Source of the DNA: a virus
Virus record (IMG/VR): IMGVR_UViG_3300020200_000001
Location: 1 to 60,489 of that record
DNA length: 60,489 bases
Reading direction: 5' to 3' (one strand)
Made by a program: the position numbers and the translations under genes. Positions 10,801-36,690 of this stretch are shown here, piece after piece; the stretch's first letter is position 1, and the number at the start of each line of letters is the position of its first letter. The notes under the pieces are model-generated. The model ran no database searches and was not told the DNA's origin. It worked only from the letters and a program-made list of their open reading frames with translations.

Positions 10801-12099
10801 GGCAGCCACCGCCGCCTGAATGCTCGCAAACGGCAGCGCCAGGGTTGTGCCCGGGTAGGTGTCATCACCGTCCGGCGACACGTAGAAGATGTTCGTCGAA
10901 CCGCTGGCGTTTAGCCACGCAATGCCTGCGCCAGTCGGATCGACCGACAGCGAGTAGCCTTCCTGGCCGGGAGCGATGACGGGGAGAACGTCGTCGCCGC
11001 CCTGTGCAAAGAACACCCACTTGCCTGCATCAAACTCAACGCTGAAGTTGGTGCCGGAGGTGAAGTCCTCAGTCGCGATGTAGGACGAACCGACCTGACG
11101 AACGATGTCGTTGACCAGGTACGGGGTGTTCTGTGCCCACACGCCGCGCCAGCGGATGCCTCCGTTGAAGATCTCCCACTTGCCTGCGGCCAAGTCTGTA
11201 GCAAAGGTGCCAGAAGTGTTGGTCTGCAAGCAGGAATAGGTGTTCCCGCCGTAGACGACAATGTCGTAAGGCAGGTACAGAGTAGCAGTCGTCCACTCCC
11301 CGCGCTGGCGCAGGCCAGAAACGAAGATCGACCACTTGCCTGCGGCCAAGTCGGTTGAGAACACGCCGGAGGTGTTCTGGATCTGGCAGGCGTATGTGTT
11401 GGCACCGTACTGGACCAGGTCATTGACGTAGTACAGCGTGCCAGTCTGCCAGGCCCCACGGTTCTCAAATGCGGAGATCCAGGGAGTCCAGTAGTTGGTA
11501 TCGGTCGGAGGATTGCCGGTCGTGTTGGCGGTACAGATGTACAGATTCGCGCCGTATGCGACCACGTCGTTCGGGGCATACGCCGTCGCGTTGTTGTACA
11601 CGCCCTCAGGAGCAATACCGGTGACGAAAGGGTCCCAATAGACAGTGTTTGTCGGGTCGTTGCCTACAGTCGTCTGCTTGGCGATATAGGCATTGCCGCC
11701 GTACTTGACGACGTCGTTGGCCTGGTACGAGGTGACGGGGTTGTAATTGCCTTCCCACTGGATCGCCTCAACAAACTGCGACCAGAAAGCAGGGAATAAA
11801 TCAGGCCGCTTGTTGATGTTGTCCTGCAGCGCCACGTACACCGTCGAGCCGTATGCGACGGCGTCGCCGATGTAATACTGGGTGGCATTCGTCCACTCGC
11901 CAACGAAGTTGATGCCCTCAACCATCAGCGCCCAGTACGCCGTGTCGGTCGGCTCATTGCCGATCGTCTTGACGACGTTGATGTAGACGTAGACGTTACC
12001 GCCGTAGCGGACAACGTCGTTCAGTTCATACTCAGTGAGCGGGTTGTAGTTGCCAGCCCAGTAGAACCGTAATTTTCCAAGATCGACGACTGTAGTCAT
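7810..12099 (-). CDS. Giant modular tail fibre / receptor-binding protein
   Basis: A 1,429-residue protein, the largest here. Residues about 10-370 hold seven carbohydrate-binding-like modules of roughly 50 residues, each with Y..ND(V/I)V.YG.N.Y and an aromatic W....Y at its start. From about 400, FYVSPDGDDTYPGTTLALPF opens a probable right-handed beta-helix (to about 640). A segment with YYVSTDQDGNFRVGEYF (about 860) and DTR resembles fibre shaft/attachment units. Two Ig-like putative domains (about 985-1160) follow. The C-terminal 230 residues are extremely Gly-rich, opening VSVVCIGGGGAG, like glycine-rich phage adhesin tips. Its stop overlaps nothing; the chaperone follows after 12 bp. Confidence 0.85.
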   Translation of the reverse strand: MTTVVDLGKLRFYWAGNYNPLTEYELNDVVRYGGNVYVYINVVKTIGNEPTDTAYWALMVEGINFVGEWTNATQYYIGDAVAYGSTVYVALQDNINKRPDLFPAFWSQFVEAIQWEGNYNPVTSYQANDVVKYGGNAYIAKQTTVGNDPTNTVYWDPFVTGIAPEGVYNNATAYAPNDVVAYGANLYICTANTTGNPPTDTNYWTPWISAFENRGAWQTGTLYYVNDLVQYGANTYACQIQNTSGVFSTDLAAGKWSIFVSGLRQRGEWTTATLYLPYDIVVYGGNTYSCLQTNTSGTFATDLAAGKWEIFNGGIRWRGVWAQNTPYLVNDIVRQVGSSYIATEDFTSGTNFSVEFDAGKWVFFAQGGDDVLPVIAPGQEGYSLSVDPTGAGIAWLNASGSTNIFYVSPDGDDTYPGTTLALPFASIQAAVAAVPAGQPATIFVKTGTYLEAALPIVIPPTVAIVGDNQRTVIVQPAAGLAADGITPNNQATMFLMSNASILNKMTFTGMTGWVPGGTPGDIRTSTPKGVVAALNPASTVTTKSPYILECSAIGSGLIGAFVDGSTQASGYKSMLFHGYTIIADNGIGFWVKDGGRGEIVSCFTYYAYFGYATSGGGVIRALNGNNSYGTWGSASFGFLASEIPHVGALYGKQLTVTTDPITQGFAAGTTVTGVTSGATGTVTNLQASAAKIYYNQTSVADFQNGEDITDGTYTLTLTGSGVSNQMGYLLVANGFNDAPQPGASLQVTGDSAAYVIQSVSGTYVDSSSVMSLALAQEKLTPSAPGAVVTLRNNYSQIRLTGHDFLSIGTGGIATTNYPNTPTQPPAQGNEVNEDLPGRVYYVSTDQDGNFRVGEYFRVDQATGTATLNANAFNLAGLTSLRLGSIGAQLGETINEFSSDVTLGGANPTNVAVPTEAAVKTYVDTRVPQAIPTSVGETGKVLTSAGSTLAFQALALNDIVGPDSIFAQTGTAITYNYAIFSNTLLPPASWSLTGSIPSGVSINSSTGVLTVGSSTAAGSYSGFNIRADGSSNTGNITEALTLVVNGAYPIFGAGVLPDTVTPSAAFTSTATQATALSGVVVHTVSAGAIPAWLTLSSAGVLSGTAPAGPIGYLSTFNFTVTATNGVYSNSRVFTWTPYLGTIQGQNQYTSAGTYSWTAPAAVTSVSVVCIGGGGAGQDNWANPAGSGGGLGWKNNITVVPGQTYTVVVGAGGQSTTSSASPTLLGGNSYFISLGTVSGYGGGNASGISTSGPNANSYGGGYVGTGGGAGGNAPNYQGGGGAGGYIGRGGNGQESWNGTVQGAYGGSYYSSTYGTGAGGGVNLYGPTGWPSPGNAFYNPFTSYNNNAGWGNGGSGAHGGSNGMYGENPFSGSGQSSSNIQGGDYGGGGGGPGTSWPSASGNGGSGAVRIMWGSGRAYPNTNVADVTPSGPA

Positions 12100-15992: not shown

Positions 15993-16238
15993 TCAGCTTC
16001 GCTGGGTGATTTGGTCGAGCTTTGCTTCGAGTCTGTTGAATCTATTGTCGACGTGTTCGACAATTTTCTCCAGATCTGCACGAACTTCTGCACGAGTGAT
16101 GTGATCACGGGCAACCTCCTCTCTTGTTTTGTTAAGAAGAATGCTGAGACGAGTCACCTCAGCGAACTTCTCTTTTAGTACGAACCCCATAATTCCCACC
16201 AATCCCGTAAGGATGATGTTCCAGATCAGCATCTCCAT
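15993..16238 (-). CDS. Membrane-anchored coiled-coil small protein
   Basis: An 81-residue protein with one N-terminal membrane segment (residues 4-21, WNIILTGLVGIMGFVL). A charged helix with heptad character follows to the end (LNKTREEVARDHITRAEV, VDNRFNRLEAKLDQI). The same family occurs next to neck genes in many phages and has no settled function. Topology suggests a virion- or membrane-associated role; a spanin-like or ejection role is possible but unproven. Confidence 0.62.
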   Translation of the reverse strand: MEMLIWNIILTGLVGIMGFVLKEKFAEVTRLSILLNKTREEVARDHITRAEVRADLEKIVEHVDNRFNRLEAKLDQITQRS

Positions 16239-16241
16239 GGC

Positions 16242-16538
16242 TCAACACTTCCATCTTTTTCTCGCCTGGCGAAGGCGACTATTCGGATCTTTAGCGGCCT
16301 CCGGAAACATCTTCATTTGCCCCGCCGAACGCGCGCAATAACTTTTGCGGCGTTTGGCACGTGAGACGGAATACGGCTTCTGCTCCGTCACGGCAGTCAT
16401 TAGTTTGCTTCCAGGGTTCGCACGACGATAGGCTGCCACGCCTTTTTTTGTCATGCCCGCTCCTGTCTTAGTGGCGCGAAAATTTCCGCTCTCCACTGAG
16501 GTTTTGATGCCCATTCCTGATCGTTTAGCTGTCGCCAT
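16242..16538 (-). CDS. DUF6321-like basic protein
   Basis: A 98-residue basic protein with GAGMTKKGVAAYRRANPGSK, AKRRKSYCARSAGQMK, and a C-terminal FPEAAKDPNSRLRQARKRW-K-C. I recognise this as the small basic DUF6321-type family of phage proteins, with two conserved Cys. Its FPEAAKDPNSR phrase also occurs inside the 799-residue protein at 23.7-26.1 kb. Function is unknown; nucleic-acid contact in the particle is plausible from its charge. Confidence 0.68.
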   Translation of the reverse strand: MATAKRSGMGIKTSVESGNFRATKTGAGMTKKGVAAYRRANPGSKLMTAVTEQKPYSVSRAKRRKSYCARSAGQMKMFPEAAKDPNSRLRQARKRWKC

Positions 16539-29201: not shown

Positions 29202-29264
29202 ATACAGGTCTGTTTCGTTTTGAATTGCAAAAAATTTTTGGCCAAGTGCATTTTGCACAGAAAG

Positions 29265-29333
29265 GGGTACTTTTGGCAAGAAAGTTTCACGTGAAACAGG
29301 AGTACCCCAAAAAGGGGCCTAAAACTGTTTAGG
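29265..29333. promoter_or_regulatory. Palindrome-dense control region upstream of the large terminase
   Basis: Within about 70 bp are GGGGTACT (29265-29272) and its inverted partner AGTACCCC (29301-29308) on either side of a parS-like site. Next come CCCCAAAAAGGGG (29305-29317) and CCTAAA-ACTG-TTTAGG (29318-29333). The boxes resemble the GGTACTT elements clustered at 35 kb. A late-operon control site is the simplest reading. Confidence 0.55.
29283..29298. promoter_or_regulatory. parS-like site (ParB-binding palindrome)
   Basis: AGTTTCACGTGAAACA contains the perfect palindrome GTTTCACGTGAAAC and matches the conserved chromosomal parS consensus TGTTTCACGTGAAACA at 15 of 16 positions. The 14-mer is expected by chance about 0.0002 times in a genome of this size. 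No ParB gene is seen in the phage, so the host ParB would be the binder. Identity by consensus is strong; function is untested. Confidence 0.72.
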
Positions 29334-29713
29334 TGGTAATTGTTTGTGCGAAATCGGGCCAAGGCCTTTGCGCATTTTGCGCGGGCCGCGAATCGCGCGG
29401 CCCGGTTCGCGGTCCGCGTCGTGCGCCAAAATGCGCGCCGGGACTCGCCCCCGGCCCCCGGCCCAGGCACCCGGGCGGCCACGGCCACGGCCTGCAGCTC
29501 ACGGCCCAGGGACCACGGCCCAGGGACCACGGCCCAGGGCTCACGATACGGCGGCCACGCCCTGGCGCAGCACGGCCCGGGGACCCCGGGCCAGGTTTCC
29601 GATAGGCCAGGGACCGGCCACCAGGCGGCCGACGTAATGGCCAGCAGGCCAGGCGCTGCAGGGCCTGGCGCATGCGATACGGGGGCAGGCATTACGCCCA
29701 GGTGACCAGGCGC
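29334..29713. other. Very GC-rich non-coding stretch between terminase and the accessory island
   Basis: About 380 bp, strikingly rich in GGCC and CGGCC. Open frames exist on both strands but have Pro/Arg/Gly/Ala composition without motifs or ribosome-binding sites, so I treat them as artefacts of high GC. It includes a short tandem repeat. It could be a packaging site, a spacer or a decayed gene; nothing decides this. Confidence 0.5.
29500..29541. repeat. 14-bp tandem repeat, three copies
   Basis: The unit CACGGCCCAGGGAC occurs at 29500-29513 and 29514-29527, and with two changes at 29528-29541. It is in the GC-rich non-coding stretch before the large terminase. Confidence 0.85.
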
Positions 29714-29741
29714 AAAAAAACCGGGCACGCGGGCCCGGTTT
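29714..29741 (-). terminator. Rho-independent terminator ending the accessory island
   Basis: A 9-bp stem AAACCGGGC / GCCCGGTTT with a 6-base loop is followed on the minus strand by seven T residues. It lies 30 bp past the last gene of the island and separates it from the late operon. Confidence 0.88.
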
Positions 29742-29771
29742 CGGTGTGATGCGGCGTAATGCCGCGAGGGT

Positions 29772-30179
29772 TCAGGCCAGGCCCAGCTCGGCCCTGGTGA
29801 CGTCGCGCAGCCAGCGCGGGCCGAACCGGTTCCGGACCTGGCGCAGCAGGTGCCCGGCGGGCTCGCTCGCGTCGGTCCCGGCCAGCCAGGCGGCGGCCAG
29901 CTCGGCGCGCCAGGCGCGGCCGTGCCTGGTGGCGAATGCGGCCACGGCGGCGAGCTGCTCGGCAGTCGGCCCGGCCATGCGGGCCAGGATCACGTCGGCA
30001 GTGTCGCGGGCGTCCTGGCGATCGTCGGTGTGATACTCGCTCACCAGGCGGCCGGATGCGTCCCAGGCCTGGACGCGATACTCGGACCAGTCCCGATCGA
30101 ACCCGATCCGGACGCGGCCCACGTCCTGGACGGCCACCACCTGCACCAGGCGGCCCACTACAGCGGCGGGGCGGCTCAT
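29772..30179 (-). CDS. Accessory island protein, function unknown
   Basis: A 135-residue protein starting at the ATG at 30177-30179, coupled to the previous stop (ATGA). A longer in-frame extension is GC-driven. The N-terminal half is beta-rich (VGRLVQVVAVQDVGRVRIGF, YRVQAWDASGRLVSEYHTDD). The C-terminal half is Ala-rich helical (PTAEQLAAVAAFATRHGRAW). It is probably a small plasmid/phage accessory protein. Base composition is strongly GC-rich. Confidence 0.6.
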   Translation of the reverse strand: MSRPAAVVGRLVQVVAVQDVGRVRIGFDRDWSEYRVQAWDASGRLVSEYHTDDRQDARDTADVILARMAGPTAEQLAAVAAFATRHGRAWRAELAAAWLAGTDASEPAGHLLRQVRNRFGPRWLRDVTRAELGLA

Positions 30180-30622
30180 GCTACACCCCCGGCCAGCTCG
30201 GCCAGCTCGGCGGGATCGCCCAGGGTCCAGGGGGCGGCCTGATAACCTGGCAGCAGGTGATCCGGTACGTCGCGCAGGACCCCGGCGGCCCGCTCGCGGG
30301 CGGCCTTGATCACGGCGCGCAGCACGTGCCAGGCGTCGGATTTTTCCCAGCTCGCCCAGTCGCTGGCCTGGTAGTCCAGGCAGGCGCAGGCCTTGACGAT
30401 GTTGACGGGGCGCAGCTCGCCCAGGGCGGCCACCTGGTAGCCCCCGAATGCGGGGCATTCGTCCTGATAACGGCCCTGGTATCGCTCGGCGAATGCGCGC
30501 CGATTCGCAGCGGCCAGCAGCTCGGCGGCCACGGGGGCAGCAAACGGCAGCGGCACGGCGTGCAGCTCGGCCCAGGTGATCAGGGTGTTGACGTGGTAGT
30601 CGGTGACGATTAAGCAGCTCAT
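30176..30622 (-). CDS. Plasmid/phage accessory protein (HVNTL family)
   Basis: A 148-residue protein opening MSCLIVTDYHVNTLITWAEL, with RYQGRYQDECPAFGGYQ, VNIVKACACLDYQASDW and SDAWHVLRAVIKAA. I recognise the pattern (CxIV...HIN.LV.WA; VQ..K...CYDYQ) from proteins on conjugative plasmids and some phages, without an assigned function. It is transcribed from an upstream block shared with the DUF932 gene. Confidence 0.64.
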   Translation of the reverse strand: MSCLIVTDYHVNTLITWAELHAVPLPFAAPVAAELLAAANRRAFAERYQGRYQDECPAFGGYQVAALGELRPVNIVKACACLDYQASDWASWEKSDAWHVLRAVIKAARERAAGVLRDVPDHLLPGYQAAPWTLGDPAELAELAGGVA

Positions 30623-30641
30623 AAGGTCTCACTTTCTTTCT

Positions 30642-30697
30642 GTATACGTGCGACGGTGCACGGTGACATTTTCGCCCGAAATTCGCGGCGTAGTCAA
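30642..30697 (-). promoter_or_regulatory. Conserved upstream block, type 1, copy a
   Basis: On the minus strand it runs from TTGACT (30692-30697) through GCGAATTTCGGGCGAAAAT to CACGTATAC. It is closely similar to the block at 31784-31840, upstream of a different gene. TTGAC may be a -35 element; no good -10 is evident at normal spacing. Conservation between two unrelated gene leaders suggests a promoter or binding site. Confidence 0.55.
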
Positions 30698-30703
30698 TCG
30701 GGC

Positions 30704-30731
30704 AAAAAAAACGGGGCCACGCGGGCCCCGT
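30704..30731 (-). terminator. Rho-independent terminator after the DUF932 gene
   Basis: An 8-bp stem ACGGGGCC / GGCCCCGT with a 5-base loop is followed on the minus strand by eight T residues. It lies 24 bp past the stop of the DUF932 gene, just ahead of the next gene's upstream block. Confidence 0.88.
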
Positions 30732-30754
30732 CCAGGTGCAGCAGCTCGGCCAGG

Positions 30755-31762
30755 TCAAGCGGCCAGCAGCTCGGCGGCGCGCGCCTTGAGTGCGGCCCCG
30801 GATCCAAACCAGGCGGACTCCATCCGGGTATTATTTGAGCGGCCCCGCTCATGATCCACTAGCTCGGTGACGGCGTTAAGCATGGCCCAGCGAGTACCGG
30901 CCACGCCCGGCAGGTCGGACCCGATCGCCCGGCCGTCGAACAGCTCGCGGATCCGGCGGAATGCTTTCGACTCGCGGACGTCCAGGTCGGCACGGTGCCA
31001 GGGTTTCAGCAGCTCGGCCAGGAAATCGTCGGCCTGCTCGGTCGACATCGGCACGGCGGCGAGCTGGCGGGATTGCACCAGAAAATTTTCCCAGGCATTC
31101 GCGACGATCCCAAGCTGCAGGCGGACGGCCTCACGCTCAAATTTTTCCGAATGCAGCACGCGCACGGCGCTGGCCAGGTAGCCCCGCGACGTCTCGGCCT
31201 CGCCCTTGATCACGCGGCCCTGGGAATATCCGCCCACGGCGGCGGTGATGGTGTTATTGCATACCACGCGAATGGCGGTGAATTTCGCCACGGTGGCCAT
31301 GGTCCCGTCGTACGACGTGCCCAGCAGCAGGTAAGGCTTTACCAGGTCCCGATCCACCACGGGGGCAGCATCGCCCACGCTGGCCAGGGCCCAGACGCGT
31401 TTCCCGTCCGATAACGCGCCCGCCGTTTCAAGCTGGAATCCGCCCAGGTCCACCAGCTCGCGAAAAAATTCCATCACTTCGCCCGGCTGGACCACGTGGT
31501 ACCCGTCCGAAACCACGGCCAGGGGCGCGCCGGTGTCGGACCGGCTCAGAACCTTACGATTCGGCCAGGTTTGCAGCTCGGTGGTGGCGGGGGTGTAATA
31601 CTTAACCGGGGACTCAATCACTGTGTAGCCTAGCCCGGCCTCGCGGGTCCAGGTTTCAATACTTGCGCCAGGTGTAAGGGCCTGGCCCAGACCGTGCCAG
31701 GGTGTCGCGCCGGTGTAGGCCATTGCAGCGGTGCCGGTGGTGATATCAATCATGTGCGCCAT
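30755..31762 (-). CDS. DUF932 / phage-plasmid-like protein (TIGR03299-like)
   Basis: A 335-residue protein with the family opening MAHMIDITTGTAAMAYTGAT, then PWHGLG. Further marks are LSRSDTGAPLAVVSDGYHVV, FFRELVDLGGF.LETAGAL, KVWALAS-type and GYLLLGTSYDGTMATVAKFT segments, TRVVCNNT-like and KAF.RIRELFDG. Family members occur on plasmids and phages and have no firmly established role. It is flanked by its own upstream block and terminator, as an independent unit. Family call is confident. Confidence 0.88.
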   Translation of the reverse strand: MAHMIDITTGTAAMAYTGATPWHGLGQALTPGASIETWTREAGLGYTVIESPVKYYTPATTELQTWPNRKVLSRSDTGAPLAVVSDGYHVVQPGEVMEFFRELVDLGGFQLETAGALSDGKRVWALASVGDAAPVVDRDLVKPYLLLGTSYDGTMATVAKFTAIRVVCNNTITAAVGGYSQGRVIKGEAETSRGYLASAVRVLHSEKFEREAVRLQLGIVANAWENFLVQSRQLAAVPMSTEQADDFLAELLKPWHRADLDVRESKAFRRIRELFDGRAIGSDLPGVAGTRWAMLNAVTELVDHERGRSNNTRMESAWFGSGAALKARAAELLAA

Positions 31763-31783
31763 TTTGCTTTCTCACTTTCTCAG

Positions 31784-31840
31784 GTATACGTGCGGGATTG
31801 CACGGTTTGAATTTTCGCCCGAAATTCGCGGGGGTGTCAA
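31784..31840 (-). promoter_or_regulatory. Conserved upstream block, type 1, copy b
   Basis: Paired with the block at 30642-30697. On the minus strand it runs TTGACA (31835-31840), GCGAATTTCGGGCGAAAAT, GTGCAAT and CACGTATAC, about 20 bases before the DUF932 start. The conservation is non-coding. Confidence 0.55.
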
Positions 31841-31852
31841 GCCTCCGCAAAA

Positions 31853-32368
31853 TCAGGGGGCGGGCACCAGCTCGGCGGACCTGGCCACGCGGGCGGGCAT
31901 GCGCCAGGTGGCCCCGAATCCGTCCAGCACGCGCCAGCCACGGCGGCCCAGGGACTCGGCCAGGGTGTACTCGCGGCCGTCGCGCATGCGCAGGCGGGCA
32001 CCAGGGACCAGGGCAGGCCTGGCGGATTTTTTCGCATGATATTCGCGGACCCGCTCGCGCCATTGTGCGGCCCAGCCCTCGCGCTCGGCGTGCGGGGCGT
32101 CCAGGTAAGCCAGGGGGCAGTCGACGGCGCAGGGCCCGACGGTTTCGTCCAGGTCTTTATACCCCCAGCCCGCGCCCCGGGAACCCTGCAGCAGGTCCAG
32201 GCCGATCCAGTGCAGGCCGGTGGCCCGCTCGCGGATCAAATACCAGTGATGAGAACCCGATGCGCAGGTGCGCACCAGCTCGAATTTTTCACCGAATCGC
32301 TCGGGGCGGCGCAGGTGCTGCACCAGGGATTCACGCGTCGGCGTAGTGTAGGGAAAAGTCCAGCCCAT
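31853..32368 (-). CDS. DUF6927-like accessory protein (MGWTF family)
   Basis: A 171-residue protein opening MGWTFPYTTPTRESLVQHL, with HHWYLIRERATGLHWIGLDL, GAGWGYKDLDETVGPCAVDC and PLAYLDAPHAEREGWAAQWR. These match the MGWTF...GWGYKD.DE..GP...CPL.YL family found in phages and plasmids, here with extra C-terminal beta strands (RLRMRDGREYTLAESLGRRG). Function is unknown. It follows the 84-residue gene by 3 bp and shares its promoter. Confidence 0.8.
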   Translation of the reverse strand: MGWTFPYTTPTRESLVQHLRRPERFGEKFELVRTCASGSHHWYLIRERATGLHWIGLDLLQGSRGAGWGYKDLDETVGPCAVDCPLAYLDAPHAEREGWAAQWRERVREYHAKKSARPALVPGARLRMRDGREYTLAESLGRRGWRVLDGFGATWRMPARVARSAELVPAP

Positions 32369-32371
32369 AAT

Positions 32372-32626
32372 TTAGCCCTCCCGCCCAGCGCGCAAATAGT
32401 CCAGCTCGAATTCCAGGACATCGGCAGCGGCGGGCCAGAGTAAGCCCGAAAACGGGCCCGCGCCCTCGTAAGGCGGTTTTTTAATTTCGGCGATTACCAG
32501 GGGCAGCAGGCGATGCACTGCCGCGTCCCAGCTCGCGCCCTGCAGGAATGCGTCGCGCGCCTGGTGCCGGGCGGCCTCGGTGGCCTGATCACTGATCACG
32601 GCCTGGGCGATTTCTGACGGTTTCAT
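32372..32626 (-). CDS. Small accessory protein
   Basis: An 84-residue helical protein (MKPSEIAQAVISDQATEAAR, then WDAAVHRLLPLVIAEIKK). It is the first gene behind the 33-bp repeated promoter copy at 32.68 kb. It has no recognised domain. Confidence 0.55.
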   Translation of the reverse strand: MKPSEIAQAVISDQATEAARHQARDAFLQGASWDAAVHRLLPLVIAEIKKPPYEGAGPFSGLLWPAAADVLEFELDYLRAGREG

Positions 32627-32674
32627 GGTTTGCTCACTTTCTGACTGTATGCGCGGGGACGTCCCCCGCGCTGC

Positions 32675-32707
32675 TAGTGTATCGCAAAAAATCTCGGGCG
32701 CGCAAGC
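32675..32707 (-). promoter_or_regulatory. 33-bp repeated promoter, copy a
   Basis: On the minus strand it contains TTGCGC, an 18-bp spacer with a T6 tract, and TACACT, giving a sigma70-like promoter. The 33 bases recur exactly at 33459-33491 before a different gene. A GC-rich hairpin (GCGCGGGG / CCCCGCGC) lies between it and the ATG. Confidence 0.72.
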
Positions 32708-33403
32708 TCAAAAAATTTCGCGGCCAATATCGCCCGCCACGTGGTGGCGCAGCAGGGACCCAGGGGGCAGCGAACGAGCGAATGCGCGCAGGGTTTCGGC
32801 GTCATTCGGCGCACCGGTTTTTTTCGTCCTGTGCCACTGAATCGCTGTTTTACCCCCGGCCGCATAGCATCCGCCGGACCCGGTGCCGACGCGTTTCGCG
32901 CTGGCCCCGTGCGCGACGAAAACGATCACATAATCCCGCTCGCCACGTGCGCACAATGGGCGGCCACCGCCGCAGCTCGCGCAGGTGACGTGCTCGACGG
33001 TTTCGGCCGGGCAGCGAACGAACCGGACGCCCTGGATTTTTTTCGGCCAGGTGTCGGCGGTGTCGGCCGGTGCAGCGTATACGGCCGGGCGGCCCAGCTC
33101 GACGGTGCGCACGGCCTCGCGGACATCGTCGCAGCTCGCATTGATCACGGTCTCGCGTTTTTTCGGGATCGGCAGGGCCTCGGCCGGGAAATGCGAATAA
33201 GTCCAGGCCTGGCCATTACGGGGCACGGCCTCGCGCAGGGCGTCCAAATAAGCGACGTCCACCTGGTGCGTGCCGGTCTCACTTTTCGGATGCAGGGCGC
33301 AAGTTTTCGGGCAGGTCCCGAACGTCTCATGTACGCCCGCGCGGTACGTGACGGCGATGGGGCCGGTTTTGCTATTGCTCGACGTGGTGACGGTTTTCAG
33401 CAT
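32708..33403 (-). CDS. Cys-motif accessory protein
   Basis: A 231-residue protein. I start it at the ATG at 33401-33403, because upstream in-frame sequence contains the promoter repeat. It opens MLKTVTTSSNSKTGPIAVTY, with FGTCPKTCALHP (C-x3-C), SHFPAEALPIPKKRETVINA, and VTCASCGGGRPLCARGERDY (C-x2-C-x6-C) followed by VIVFVAHG. The Cys clusters suggest a metal or Fe-S site. I recall similar proteins (DUF7227-like) in phages but know no function. Confidence 0.62.
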   Translation of the reverse strand: MLKTVTTSSNSKTGPIAVTYRAGVHETFGTCPKTCALHPKSETGTHQVDVAYLDALREAVPRNGQAWTYSHFPAEALPIPKKRETVINASCDDVREAVRTVELGRPAVYAAPADTADTWPKKIQGVRFVRCPAETVEHVTCASCGGGRPLCARGERDYVIVFVAHGASAKRVGTGSGGCYAAGGKTAIQWHRTKKTGAPNDAETLRAFARSLPPGSLLRHHVAGDIGREIF

Positions 33404-33458
33404 AATCTTTCTCGCTTTCTCACTGTATGGCCGACGGGGAAATCCCGACCGGTCCGCG

Positions 33459-33491
33459 TAGTGTATCGCAAAAAATCTCGGGCGCGCAAGC
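33459..33491 (-). promoter_or_regulatory. 33-bp repeated promoter, copy b
   Basis: Identical to 32675-32707, with TTGCGC-N18-TACACT on the minus strand. It drives the Cys-motif gene that starts at 33403. Confidence 0.72.
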
Positions 33492-33500
33492 CCCCGCGAA

Positions 33501-33653
33501 TCACCCGCCAAAAAATCGGCCGATCAGGGCCATGCGTAGCAGGCGCAGCAGGTCCCCGGCCGTGGACGGGGCGCGCTTTGGTTTCGGGGGCACGTACACA
33601 ACCCCCCGCTGGATTTTCTGGCGCATCGTGCGCCGGTTTTGCCTGTAATGCAT
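33501..33653 (-). CDS. Short basic protein
   Basis: A 50-residue, strongly basic protein (MHYRQNRRTMRQKIQRGVVY) with a Pro-rich middle and a hydrophobic end (LLRLLRMALIGRFFGG). The ATG at 33651-33653 follows AAGGGAACCA. No family is recognised. Given its size and composition it may be spurious, but the ribosome-binding site supports it. Confidence 0.42.
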   Translation of the reverse strand: MHYRQNRRTMRQKIQRGVVYVPPKPKRAPSTAGDLLRLLRMALIGRFFGG

Positions 33654-33684
33654 TGGTTCCCTTAATTTCTCACTTTCTGATTTT

Positions 33685-34104
33685 TCACTCGACCAGGCGG
33701 TGGCGCAGCATATGCCACCGTACGCGAGCAAGCGGCCAGCGGTCCACCGGGGGCGTGTCAATCCCCAGGTGGTGCAGGTCCATCACTTGCGCGCCACGGT
33801 ATAGCAGCAGCTCGGCCTTCAATGCCGACGTGGTCCCGGGCGGATGATACTGCACTAAGACGAACGTCGGCGCACCCAGGTCCGCATGCTTCGCATGAAA
33901 TGCGACTTGGTGCGGGCTCAGATTTATTTTTCGCCCGCGTTTCACCACCTTCAGCTCGATCGTGGCGAAATGCCCGGACCCCTTAAATGCCACCAGACAG
34001 TCAGGTATTCCCAGATTCACCCTCGACTCGATCCGCGTGATGTGGCAGTCCGCCAGGTTCTCCCGAATCCGCCGATACAGTCCCGCCTCTGGTTTCACTG
34101 CCAT
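33685..34104 (-). CDS. PD-(D/E)XK / VRR-NUC-like nuclease
   Basis: A 139-residue nuclease. RIESRVNLGIPDCLVAFKG carries the catalytic D35 and HFATIELKVVKRG the E50-x-K52 pair, followed by LSPHQVAFHAKHA, the usual conserved helix of VRR-NUC/Holliday-junction-resolvase-like phage enzymes. It may process replication or packaging intermediates. Its first 104 bases overlap the 3' end of the small terminase gene in another frame. Confidence 0.8.
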   Translation of the reverse strand: MAVKPEAGLYRRIRENLADCHITRIESRVNLGIPDCLVAFKGSGHFATIELKVVKRGRKINLSPHQVAFHAKHADLGAPTFVLVQYHPPGTTSALKAELLLYRGAQVMDLHHLGIDTPPVDRWPLARVRWHMLRHRLVE

Positions 34105-34717
34105 TTTTTAATGCCTCTTCTGCGTTGAATTCTGGATCGTGCTCGATCGTGCGCACGGCGTCCGCCGGGTCCAGGTCAATAATCGCCGTCGGTGGCGGCC
34201 CGCCGTACAGCTTTTTGATTTCCTCCAGCTTGCGCATAACCTCTTCTTTCGACATCGAATCGATCGTACCGAATCGAACCTCTTTTCGCTCGACGTAGAT
34301 CGTGCCCAGTGCCTGGCCTCGCCGGTACTCAGCCTGCACGGCCGCACCATATGCCCCGGCCTGCAGCGCAGCGTCGCGAATTTTTTGCAGGTCTTTCATA
34401 TGCCGCTCGAACGTCGTCCCGTACTTCGCATTCAGCTCGGCGCGATAAGACTGAATCGCAGCGACCACGTGCGGCGATATTTCCGCATTCGTCAGCTTCC
34501 AAGCCTTCGTTTTCGCAGACTTCTCTGGATACCCAGCGCGGATCGCGGCCTCCTTCATCGTGATCTCGCCATCACCTGATACCAGCTCCTGCACAAACTT
34601 CCATTCGCGCCCGGTCAGTGTCCGCTGCCGCTTCAACGGCGCGACCTTCGTCGTCAGGCGCTGCTGCAGCTTATTGCCCAGGATCGGGGGCGTATTGAAA
34701 ACGTCTTTCTTGCTCAT
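34001..34717 (-). CDS. terS: Terminase small subunit
   Basis: A 238-residue DNA-recognition subunit. I use the ATG at 34715-34717 (GGAGAG upstream; coupled by ATGA). GREWKFVQELVSG and MKEAAIRAGYPEKSAKTKAW form the helix-turn-helix of the Terminase_2-type family. VVAAIQSYRAELNAKYGTTF, then DLQKIRDAALQAGAYGAAVQ and GQALGTIYVERKE complete it. The last about 35 residues are polar and overlap the nuclease gene. It is unusually far (about 5 kb) from the large subunit, the GC-rich island lying between. Confidence 0.85.
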   Translation of the reverse strand: MSKKDVFNTPPILGNKLQQRLTTKVAPLKRQRTLTGREWKFVQELVSGDGEITMKEAAIRAGYPEKSAKTKAWKLTNAEISPHVVAAIQSYRAELNAKYGTTFERHMKDLQKIRDAALQAGAYGAAVQAEYRRGQALGTIYVERKEVRFGTIDSMSKEEVMRKLEEIKKLYGGPPPTAIIDLDPADAVRTIEHDPEFNAEEALKNGSETRGGTVSADSGEPGGLPHHADRVEGESGNT

Positions 34718-34971
34718 GCAACTCTCCGGCAGATCCATTCGCCCTCGGTCCGCTGGCGCACGCTAAACTTCTTTGCCTGGTCTCGGCGATAGAACGACTT
34801 CAGGGCGTCCCTGGCGGCCATAGCATCCCGATGCGTGACCAGGACAAAGTAGTCACCCAGCACCATGTACTTAAACGGGTACTTCGCTCGACCGCTCAGA
34901 GCGTTGCGCCGCACCGCATGCTCCCGGGGCTCGATCCCGGCCGTCTTCACCTCTTCGTCTCTCAACGGCAT
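34714..34971 (-). CDS. Small conserved phage protein, first gene of the island-side operon
   Basis: An 85-residue protein. I place the start at the ATG at 34969-34971 (GGAGGG upstream) rather than an ATG 16 codons earlier that lies in the motif-rich control region. KYPFKYMVLGDYFVL, then RDALKSFYRRDQAKKFSVRQ and WICRRV match a small phage family (YP...M..GD.F.......A......R....F..R....G..WR). DNA binding is possible but unproven. Confidence 0.6.
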   Translation of the reverse strand: MPLRDEEVKTAGIEPREHAVRRNALSGRAKYPFKYMVLGDYFVLVTHRDAMAARDALKSFYRRDQAKKFSVRQRTEGEWICRRVA

Positions 34972-35468
34972 CTTGCCCTCCAAAGTACCCAGATCAGTGT
35001 ACCTCAATAAAGTACCCATGTAAACACCTGGCCATCATCAATTTCGCGTTTCTATATAAGGGTACTTCCTGCGAAAAAAAAAATTTAAAAAAAAAATTTG
35101 AGCCGCGCGCGCACCCCGTAAATTCCTTACACCTCACGCTTATACAACAAGTACCGTGATCCGTGAACCCTTGTCCTGTCTACGTTCTTACGGCATTACG
35201 CTTATTACGGTACTTTTCACACAAAAAAACTGAAATCACTTTTTTTACAGGAAATACCTCTATATAACCACCCCGCCGACGTAATGAACCCGTTTTCTTA
35301 GGTACTTTTATTACGTCCACGAAACCCCCTAAAAGTACCCCGTTCCGGCCGTAATTCACCTCGTTTCGCGGACCACGAATTTTTGGCCAGATTTGGAGTG
35401 TGGTATAATATAGGTACTTCGGTCATTTTGATCGGGGTACTTTGTTCTTTAACATACAGGAGAAAGCA
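34972..35468. promoter_or_regulatory. AT-rich intergenic control region, candidate replication origin
   Basis: About 500 bp between divergent genes. It holds nine copies of GGTACTT or its inverse AAGTACC (near 34984, 35011, 35061, 35149, 35209, 35301, 35334, 35413 and 35435). An A10-T3-A10-T3 tract lies at 35074-35099, and TATATA-type sequences near 35053 and 35260. Iterated boxes plus an easily melted tract are typical of origins or multi-operator control regions. No gene is convincingly encoded here. Confidence 0.55.
35404..35409 (+). promoter_or_regulatory. Promoter -10 box for the plus-strand pair
   Basis: A perfect TATAAT preceded by T-G-G with a weak -35 (TTTTGG, 35381-35386, 17-bp spacing). 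The next downstream GGTACTT box (35413) begins 4 bp after it and could act as an operator. Confidence 0.6.
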
Positions 35469-35720
35469 ATGAAAAAGACCAATCGCGTCTGGATCGAACT
35501 CGAACTACCTTCGCGTGACGAACCCCAGCTCGGGCATGGCCGGGCCGCTGCAGCCAGTCAGATGCTGCGAAAACTTGGGGTAGACACAGGTAAGCATTAC
35601 AGCCCTGTCTGGTTTGACGAGAAAAAGTGGCGTTATGCCTTTGTCCTAGATTCCGCAGGCAGCTTTGTCTGGGCCTCGGACCATGGTCACTGGTTCAATC
35701 TAGACTACCTGGCCAAGTAA
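35469..35720 (+). CDS. Small protein under the control region, plus strand
   Basis: An 83-residue protein starting at ATG 35469 after AGGAGAAAGCA. It is mixed alpha/beta: MKKTNRVWIELELPSRDEPQ, then AAASQMLRKLGVDTG and KKWRYAFVLDSAGSFVWASD. No family is recognised. It is one of only four confident plus-strand genes and is transcribed directly from the candidate origin region, followed by a strong terminator. An early regulatory role is possible. Confidence 0.68.
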   Translation: MKKTNRVWIELELPSRDEPQLGHGRAAAASQMLRKLGVDTGKHYSPVWFDEKKWRYAFVLDSAGSFVWASDHGHWFNLDYLAK

Positions 35721-35732
35721 GGCCAATTCCGC

Positions 35733-35757
35733 AGGGGGACCCCACCAGGGTCCCCCT
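35733..35757 (+). terminator. Rho-independent terminator after the 83-residue gene
   Basis: An 8-bp stem AGGGGGAC / GTCCCCCT with a 9-base loop, followed by TAATTTTT on the plus strand. Confidence 0.85.
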
Positions 35758-36306: not shown

Positions 36307-36690
36307 TTACCGCTGCTCCCGCAGCATTACCAATGCTTCAGCGATGGCCGCCTGGGCCCCGTCGATTAGCTCCGTGGCCATGATGGTGGCGTCCGACTGA
36401 TCGACATCCATGCCGGTGCTGGATAAGCGCAGCATTGCAGCGATGCGTCGCAATCTTACCAGCGCCAGCTCGATCGCCTGCTGCTCCATGGGCACTGGCT
36501 CATGTGCAAACAGCAGGCCTGCCTGCTCGGCGTTTTCTTTGCGGACCCACCGATACTTGTACCCAGGACCTGGCTCGGGTGCCGGGGGCATTGGGACTGC
36601 GGTTTTCTGAACCCTGGTCCGTAGTGCTTTCTTCCCTGGCGGCCGACCTCGGCGCTTGGGGGCTTCAACTGCTTTCTTTGCTCGTGCCAT
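36307..36690 (-). CDS. AT-hook-like DNA-binding protein
   Basis: A 127-residue protein. KRRGRPPGKKALRTR (12-26) is a canonical AT-hook (RGRP core). PPAPEPGPGYKYRWVRKENA (35-54) repeats the phrase of the head-region protein at 18.8 kb. The C-terminal half is helical (IELALVRLRRIAAMLRLS, ELIDGAQAAIAEALVML). It likely binds AT-rich DNA, possibly the nearby origin-like region. AAAGGAG precedes the ATG. Confidence 0.66.
   Translation of the reverse strand: MARAKKAVEAPKRRGRPPGKKALRTRVQKTAVPMPPAPEPGPGYKYRWVRKENAEQAGLLFAHEPVPMEQQAIELALVRLRRIAAMLRLSSTGMDVDQSDATIMATELIDGAQAAIAEALVMLREQR

Follow-up and report, generated by a model that had tools for sequence, protein, structure and literature searches.

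The gap between two divergent genes close to the small terminase gene (terS) of the virus genome analyzed here contains a compact element of about 213 bp (35053-35266) that is bracketed by two inward-facing copies of one sequence and encloses conserved short repeats and A/T tracts. In our assessment, the chances are about even that this element is a bidirectional replication origin, with the arms possibly involved in priming and the GGTACTT boxes coupling it to a phage regulator; the origin activity and the identity of every protein that would bind here are what we infer from this layout. The window, i.e. the whole stretch of DNA that was analyzed, is a virus record of 60,489 bases with ends that overlap by 127 bases, so that the genome is about 60.36 kb long and closed on itself. 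The replication and packaging genes group this phage with Phage DSL-LC04, the phage for which a family named 'Dishuiviridae' was put forward (PMC10611076), and the HTVC023P-type pelagiphages are its more distant kin. The DNA upstream of terS was taken from 122 relatives, all from the proposed 'Dishuiviridae' and the HTVC023P-type phages, yielding 65 distinct regions. The element is thereby seen to be conserved in a large group of aquatic phages. Literature searches turned up no paper on a two-armed element of this kind.

The arms become apparent in an alignment of the nearest relatives. In the window, they read TATATAAGGGTACTTCCTG on the plus strand from 35053 and TATATAGAGGTATTTCCTG on the minus strand from 35266 (Table 1); those of DSL-LC04 read TTCCTATAGATACACTCTCTACAAATTCTATTT and TTCCTATAGGATACACTCTCTGAGAATTCTATTT. 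The arm sequence varies from phage to phage, yet the two arms match within each phage (p<1e-4). Across 48 phages, own arms score 16.3 compared to 10.5 for foreign arms (0 of 5000 permutations); in 21 phages with clear anchors, the respective values for 26-bp arms are 15.05 and 5.48 (0 of 10000 permutations) but, because these phages were picked for good arm matching, the 48-phage permutation is the fairer test. Independent drift would leave the two arms of one phage as different from each other as from the arms of other phages; the arms therefore change together, as would be expected for sites of one shared factor or under repeated gene conversion. The outer distance between the arms is 208-228 bp in 18 of the 21 phages (about 213 bp in the window) and 336-342 bp in the other three, which represent a sister clade.

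The arms are putative promoters. Both contain a TATA-like core, and an A/T tract lies just downstream of the arms in the window and of most arms in the relatives. Origins of the T4 oriF/oriG type have a -10 promoter and, near -30, an activator box; the motif YCAAWT is found upstream of 25 of the 42 arms, hence not of all, compared to 2.8% by shuffling. The arms have no clear -35 element, the -10 matches are poor in several arm families, and a simple sigma-70 scan detected nothing at the arms.

Most of the regions share a common order of core components, namely, an A/T tract, a GCGCGC(GC)AC box, ATTAC/GTAATG boxes, tandem ATTACG boxes and another A/T tract, which in the window spans positions 35074-35246. 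The most enriched motif in the 65 regions, other than A/T runs, is ATTACG rather than GGTACTT, with 196 occurrences against 29.5 expected, and these boxes occur in both orientations across the family. The A10T3A10T3 tract to which a sequence-only reading of this region had drawn attention holds the only A10 runs of the window. An A/T-rich region next to tandem repeats is present in the window and kept in relatives; the interpretation of the region as iterons plus an unwinding element was of the right kind, except that the repeats shared across the family are ATTACG, not GGTACTT. In the relatives, the IHF consensus YAANNNNTTGATW is found exactly in 25 of 59 regions (about 0.14 expected), mostly 23, 31-32 or 40-41 bp before the tandem boxes, i.e. 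in steps of approximately one repeat. This fixed place accounts for 25 of the 30 forward matches to the consensus in 80.6 kb, and variation is confined to its four free bases, the specified ones being kept. Because the lineage of the window has only 9 of 13 matching positions there, IHF characterizes many of the relatives and not the window itself. An Rfam search yielded nothing above the gathering score, and the single-strand folding z-score (z=-0.76) indicates that there is no strong hairpin.

Table 1. Features of the element and of the gap that contains it (positions in the window)
Feature	Position	Strand	Comment
Left flanking gene	34714-34974	-	86 aa, DUF7303-type small phage protein; Shine-Dalgarno GGAGG before ATG
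GGTACTT box	34983-34989	-	Just before the left gene's Shine-Dalgarno, along its transcription direction
GGTACTT box	35010-35016	-	Leader of the left gene
Left arm TATATAAGGGTACTTCCTGCGAAAAAAAAAATTT	35053-35086	+	Inward-facing; matches the right arm and co-varies with it across relatives
GGTACTT box	35061-35067	+	Within the left arm
A10T3A10T3 tract	35074-35099		Easily melted or bent DNA by the left arm; A/T tract here in relatives
GC box CGCGCGCGCACCCC, then GTAAATTCCTTACACCTCACG	35104-35138	+	Kept in relatives including DSL-LC04
GGTACTT box	35149-35155	-	In the core
IHF-like TGAACCCTTGTCC	35164-35176	+	9/13 to the IHF consensus, where relatives carry an exact IHF site
Tandem ATTACG-type boxes TTACGGCATTACGCTTATTACG	35188-35209	+	Conserved, iteron-like
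GGTACTT box	35209-35215	+	Overlaps the last ATTACG
A and T tracts CAAAAAAACTGAAATCACTTTTTTT (A7/T7)	35222-35246		Adjoin the right arm; kept in relatives
Right arm TATATAGAGGTATTTCCTGTAAAAAAAGTGATTT	35233-35266	- (read on -)	Inward-facing; matches the left arm
Module GACGTAATG-N-GGTACTT-TTATTACGTC	35278-35317		Inverted ATTACG boxes around GGTACTT; conserved in L003, L100, L103
GGTACTT box	35301-35307	+	Inside the inverted-ATTACG module
GGTACTT box	35333-35339	-	Gap right of the right arm
Right gene's extended -10 promoter TGGTATAATATAGGTACTT	35401-35419	+	GGTACTT at about +1
GGTACTT box	35413	+	At about +1 of the right gene's promoter
GGTACTT box	35436-35442	+	5' leader of the right gene
Right flanking gene	35469-35720	+	83 aa, phrog_12905; relatives in Caulobacter phages

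A search for CATTACGTCTATTACG across the full set of viral contigs located this motif in at least 160 places among the matches listed, of which 146 are near terS and seven are at contig edges; most of the other seven read as chance coding matches in unrelated phages. The 16-mer matches in L188, L200, L218, L232 and L266 were rejected as chance matches. Throughout this clade, among the matches listed, there is one main cluster per genome, close to terS. An exact-pattern scan of bacterial genomes yielded one 58-kb phage contig in a MAG, with matching arms, and one chance match. The core ends approximately 300 bp or more from the start of terS, with the DUF7303 gene between them, and the element is also the boundary between early and late genes. 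In HTVC027P, a cultured relative with the host Pelagibacter HTCC1062, a 214-bp gap between co-directional genes (14.74-14.95 kb) contains A/T tracts, GCGCG and a perfect match to the IHF consensus, and is possibly a distant relative of the core. In HTVC023P (L179), the terS gap (11319-11866) has a repeat of its own, ACTAGGAAA, four copies of which replace ATTACG and GGTACTT (five in the 50 kb examined); these repeats are not clearly the same element. A cluster of ATTACG boxes upstream of terL (29.6-29.8 kb) was considered as a second copy of the element and dismissed, as it is not kept in relatives.

In the window, nine exact copies of GGTACTT, five on the plus strand and four on the minus strand, lie within positions 34983-35442, in agreement with the sequence-only reading, which reported nine copies in both orientations within about 460 bp. 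The clustering noted there is borne out; the accompanying estimate of about seven copies expected in the whole genome is an equal-base figure, and dinucleotide shuffles give 3.9 for the whole window, compared to 18 observed. Nine of these 18 are in this one gap, whereas the next best 600-bp window outside it contains two, and in 200 Markov-1 simulated genomes the best 460-bp stretch contained 0-3 copies, never more. A-runs aside, GGTACTT is the most clustered 7-mer of the window; a tenth copy, at 34878 on the plus strand, lies inside a gene just outside the gap. A TATA-like sequence followed by GGTACTT occurs in three places in the window (0.18 in shuffles), all in this gap, namely, one in each arm (the right arm having GGTATTT) and one in the right gene's extended -10 promoter. 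Conservation of the boxes among relatives, suggested earlier as a check, is observed in the nearer ones, with clusters in L003/L004, L100/L101, L103 and L021, and also in L104, L115 and L121-L125, a group richer in A/T in which the arms, where anchored, read otherwise. The boxes probably serve as a regulator site that is specific to this clade. Given that it sits at both arm starts, at the likely +1 of the right gene and in both 5' leaders (two copies for the left gene and one for the right gene, all reading along the transcription direction), the word 'operator' in the earlier label 'master operator' suits it better than 'iterons'. The stoperators of mycobacteriophage L5 are many short asymmetric boxes, several of them along transcription, that are spread over intergenic regions of the whole genome; the boxes in the window are similarly numerous, short, asymmetric and in several cases aligned with transcription, but are confined to one gap, and no repressor was found.

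The genes on the two sides of the gap diverge, as had been pointed out previously. Homologs of the left gene were identified in 109 loci, with a Pfam DUF7303 match in 4 of 22 members, and a fold search with the predicted DUF7303 structure (pLDDT 86) matched nothing. The phrog_12905 gene on the right is not constant beside the element, and on that side the gene content differs between phages. Directly 3' of this gene, at 35733-35757, the window contains a strong hairpin resembling an intrinsic terminator. An AT-hook protein nearby, also part of the earlier account, is indeed encoded at 36307-36690 and contains RGRPPGKK; the label 'early' given there to the adjacent genes is not supported. As a binding partner of the boxes, it is probably not required because it is found only in the loci of the nearest relatives and is missing from genome G006 (60 of 68 kb covered), which has GGTACTT arms.

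Some of the evidence counts against an origin. A switch of the raw GC skew near 35 kb, which the initial reading proposed to look for, was not seen, the minimum being at 53.7 kb, or at 48.4 kb after detrending; furthermore, the closeness to terS also fits a role in packaging or as a late promoter. Because most genes are on one strand, gene strand and replichore were fitted together, using 4-fold sites in 13 genomes (several of these were represented by the first 60 kb of a record that is slightly longer, and G006 by 60 of 68 kb). In the mean strand-corrected GC skew profile of the 13 genomes, the peak lies 0.5 kb from the element, and t exceeds 2 at the element in seven of them; the window's own signal is weak for GC (t=0.98), and for TA it reaches t=2.76, with the best fit at +500 bp. 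Since the element is an early/late boundary as well, the late minus-strand genes were compared separately: the skew to the left of the element is greater than that to the right in 10 of the 13 genomes (mean 0.054, p=0.006, an optimistic value because the genomes are related), and three genomes reverse. Given that the genomes are related and some records are partial, the composite skew is support for a replichore switch at the element rather than proof.

A region of repeats plus unwinding DNA with mirrored starts is best accommodated by a bidirectional origin. In the mechanism we propose, the phage's own factor would bind the repeated ATTACG boxes, host IHF would, in many relatives, bend the core, and the A/T tracts on both flanks would open. 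The arms would act as promoter-like starts followed by easily melted DNA, and short transcripts from the inward-facing arms could prime leading strands in two directions. This arm priming would be akin to that at T4 oriF/oriG, only doubled and face to face, and GGTACTT, positioned where the arms begin and at the +1 of the right gene, may tie firing and the nearby promoters to one phage regulator. No initiator gene was recognized among the conserved proteins scanned (PHROGs/Pfam); phrog_2402 was considered for this role and set aside, with no PDB relative found by profile and a family assignment as Pam3 gp34-like.

The element looks like parts of the SPP1 and T4 origins combined and doubled. 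The SPP1 origins combine direct repeats with an unwinding element rich in A/T, with oriR located in a non-coding segment within the late genes (PMC6316719); oriR/oriL and the element share the direct repeats and the AT-rich unwinding region, whereas mirrored arms and IHF are not described in SPP1 (PMC6316719). SPP1 has the initiator gp38, the loader gp39 and the DnaB-type gp40 (PMC6316719), none of which was recognized among the proteins scanned here. In T4, oriF and oriG comprise a promoter and then an unwinding element, and the T4 origins are located close to places where the coding strand and the base skew switch (PMC3016281). The window element resembles oriF/oriG in the promoter-like start followed by A/T-rich DNA but differs in that two such starts face each other across a core of repeats; no MotA box was recognized, and an R-loop priming synthesis would be hypothetical. 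T4 oriE contains clustered 12-nt short direct repeats that are syntenic in relatives, with an unproved iteron role (PMC3016281); it resembles the element as a conserved cluster of short repeats but has no mirrored arms. A more elaborate proposal, that the element represents a new origin layout in which facing, co-evolving modules of promoter plus unwinding DNA, at a fixed distance of about 20 helical turns, surround an IHF/iteron core and replication is transcript-primed both ways, appears doubtful to us; if true, this layout would be used by an abundant group of freshwater and marine phages. The ~213-bp element with its matched, co-evolving arms is a precise target for studying how these phages start replication, and the arm sequence is a starting point for finding each clade's regulator.

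An alternative that we regard as possible, if on balance somewhat unlikely, is a promoter-operator hub without any replication role, in which face-to-face arm promoters drive the late operon as well as the divergent genes, with GGTACTT and ATTACG as the sites at which a phage regulator switches these promoters. The confinement of the three TATA-GGTACTT units to this gap argues for such a hub, as do the unit at 35404, which makes a good extended -10 promoter and places GGTACTT at +1, the orientation of the leader boxes along transcription, and the position of the region at the head of the terS operon. However, the core stays while the right-hand genes change between phages, the arms face inward at a spacing kept near 213 bp, HTVC027P seems to carry a relative of the core between co-directional genes, and the composite skew favors a replichore switch.

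The location near terS, which holds always among the matches listed, would also suit a pac site of the SPP1 kind, to which the small terminase binds to start packaging; we consider this improbable. TerS weakly matches Pfam Terminase_2, and the 127-bp overlap that closes the record is compatible with headful packaging. The SPP1 pac consists of repeats upstream of and overlapping terS, in the promoter region (PMC6316719, PMC4737164), and is thus similar to the element in having repeats in a promoter region near terS; however, it covers the terS promoter, RBS and 5' end (PMC6316719), whereas the element is mirrored and lies several hundred bp from terS with at least one gene between. Moreover, one-way packaging needs no mirrored arms, and a pac site would leave the skew signal unexplained. 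The arms of attP sites combine IHF with short boxes in both orientations, a combination that the element recalls. Nevertheless, no integrase was seen among the neighbors or the proteins scanned, the bacterial genome scan revealed only the phage contig and the chance match, and HTVC027P, an HTVC023P-type phage, is termed lytic (PMC12753301), so an attP-like recombination site, or some other nucleoprotein site built from IHF and arm-type boxes, seems highly improbable.

Several observations pertain to the terL side of the genome. The sequence AGTTTCACGTGAAACA, located at 29283-29298 just upstream of terL, is a near-perfect match to the universal bacterial parS TGTTYCACGTGRAACA, and is flanked by an inverted GGTACT pair (GGGGTACT...AGTACCCC, 29264-29310). 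A parS-type site lies at most about 40 bp from the terL start in about a third of 101 relatives, in both TTT/AAA and TCC/GGA forms, and GTTTCACGTGAAAC occurs 18 times in 150 loci, compared to 0.06 for permuted palindromes. A site for the host's ParB in a phage would merit separate study. HTVC027P (L393) contains a further parS-type site, CGTTTCACGTGAAACA, at 16413, in an unannotated segment (16207-16499) that apparently encodes a VRR-type nuclease. Tandem GGACCACGG / CCGTGGTCC repeats are present at 29480-29545 in the window, and relatives also have them on the right-hand side of the element, with GGTCCGT as the 7-bp unit; such tandem repeats recur in the non-coding gaps of this clade, including HTVC023P. 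The segment between terL and terS (29290-34500), in which the genes include those for DUF932 and a VRR-type nuclease, has a G+C content of 60-67%, compared to about 54%.
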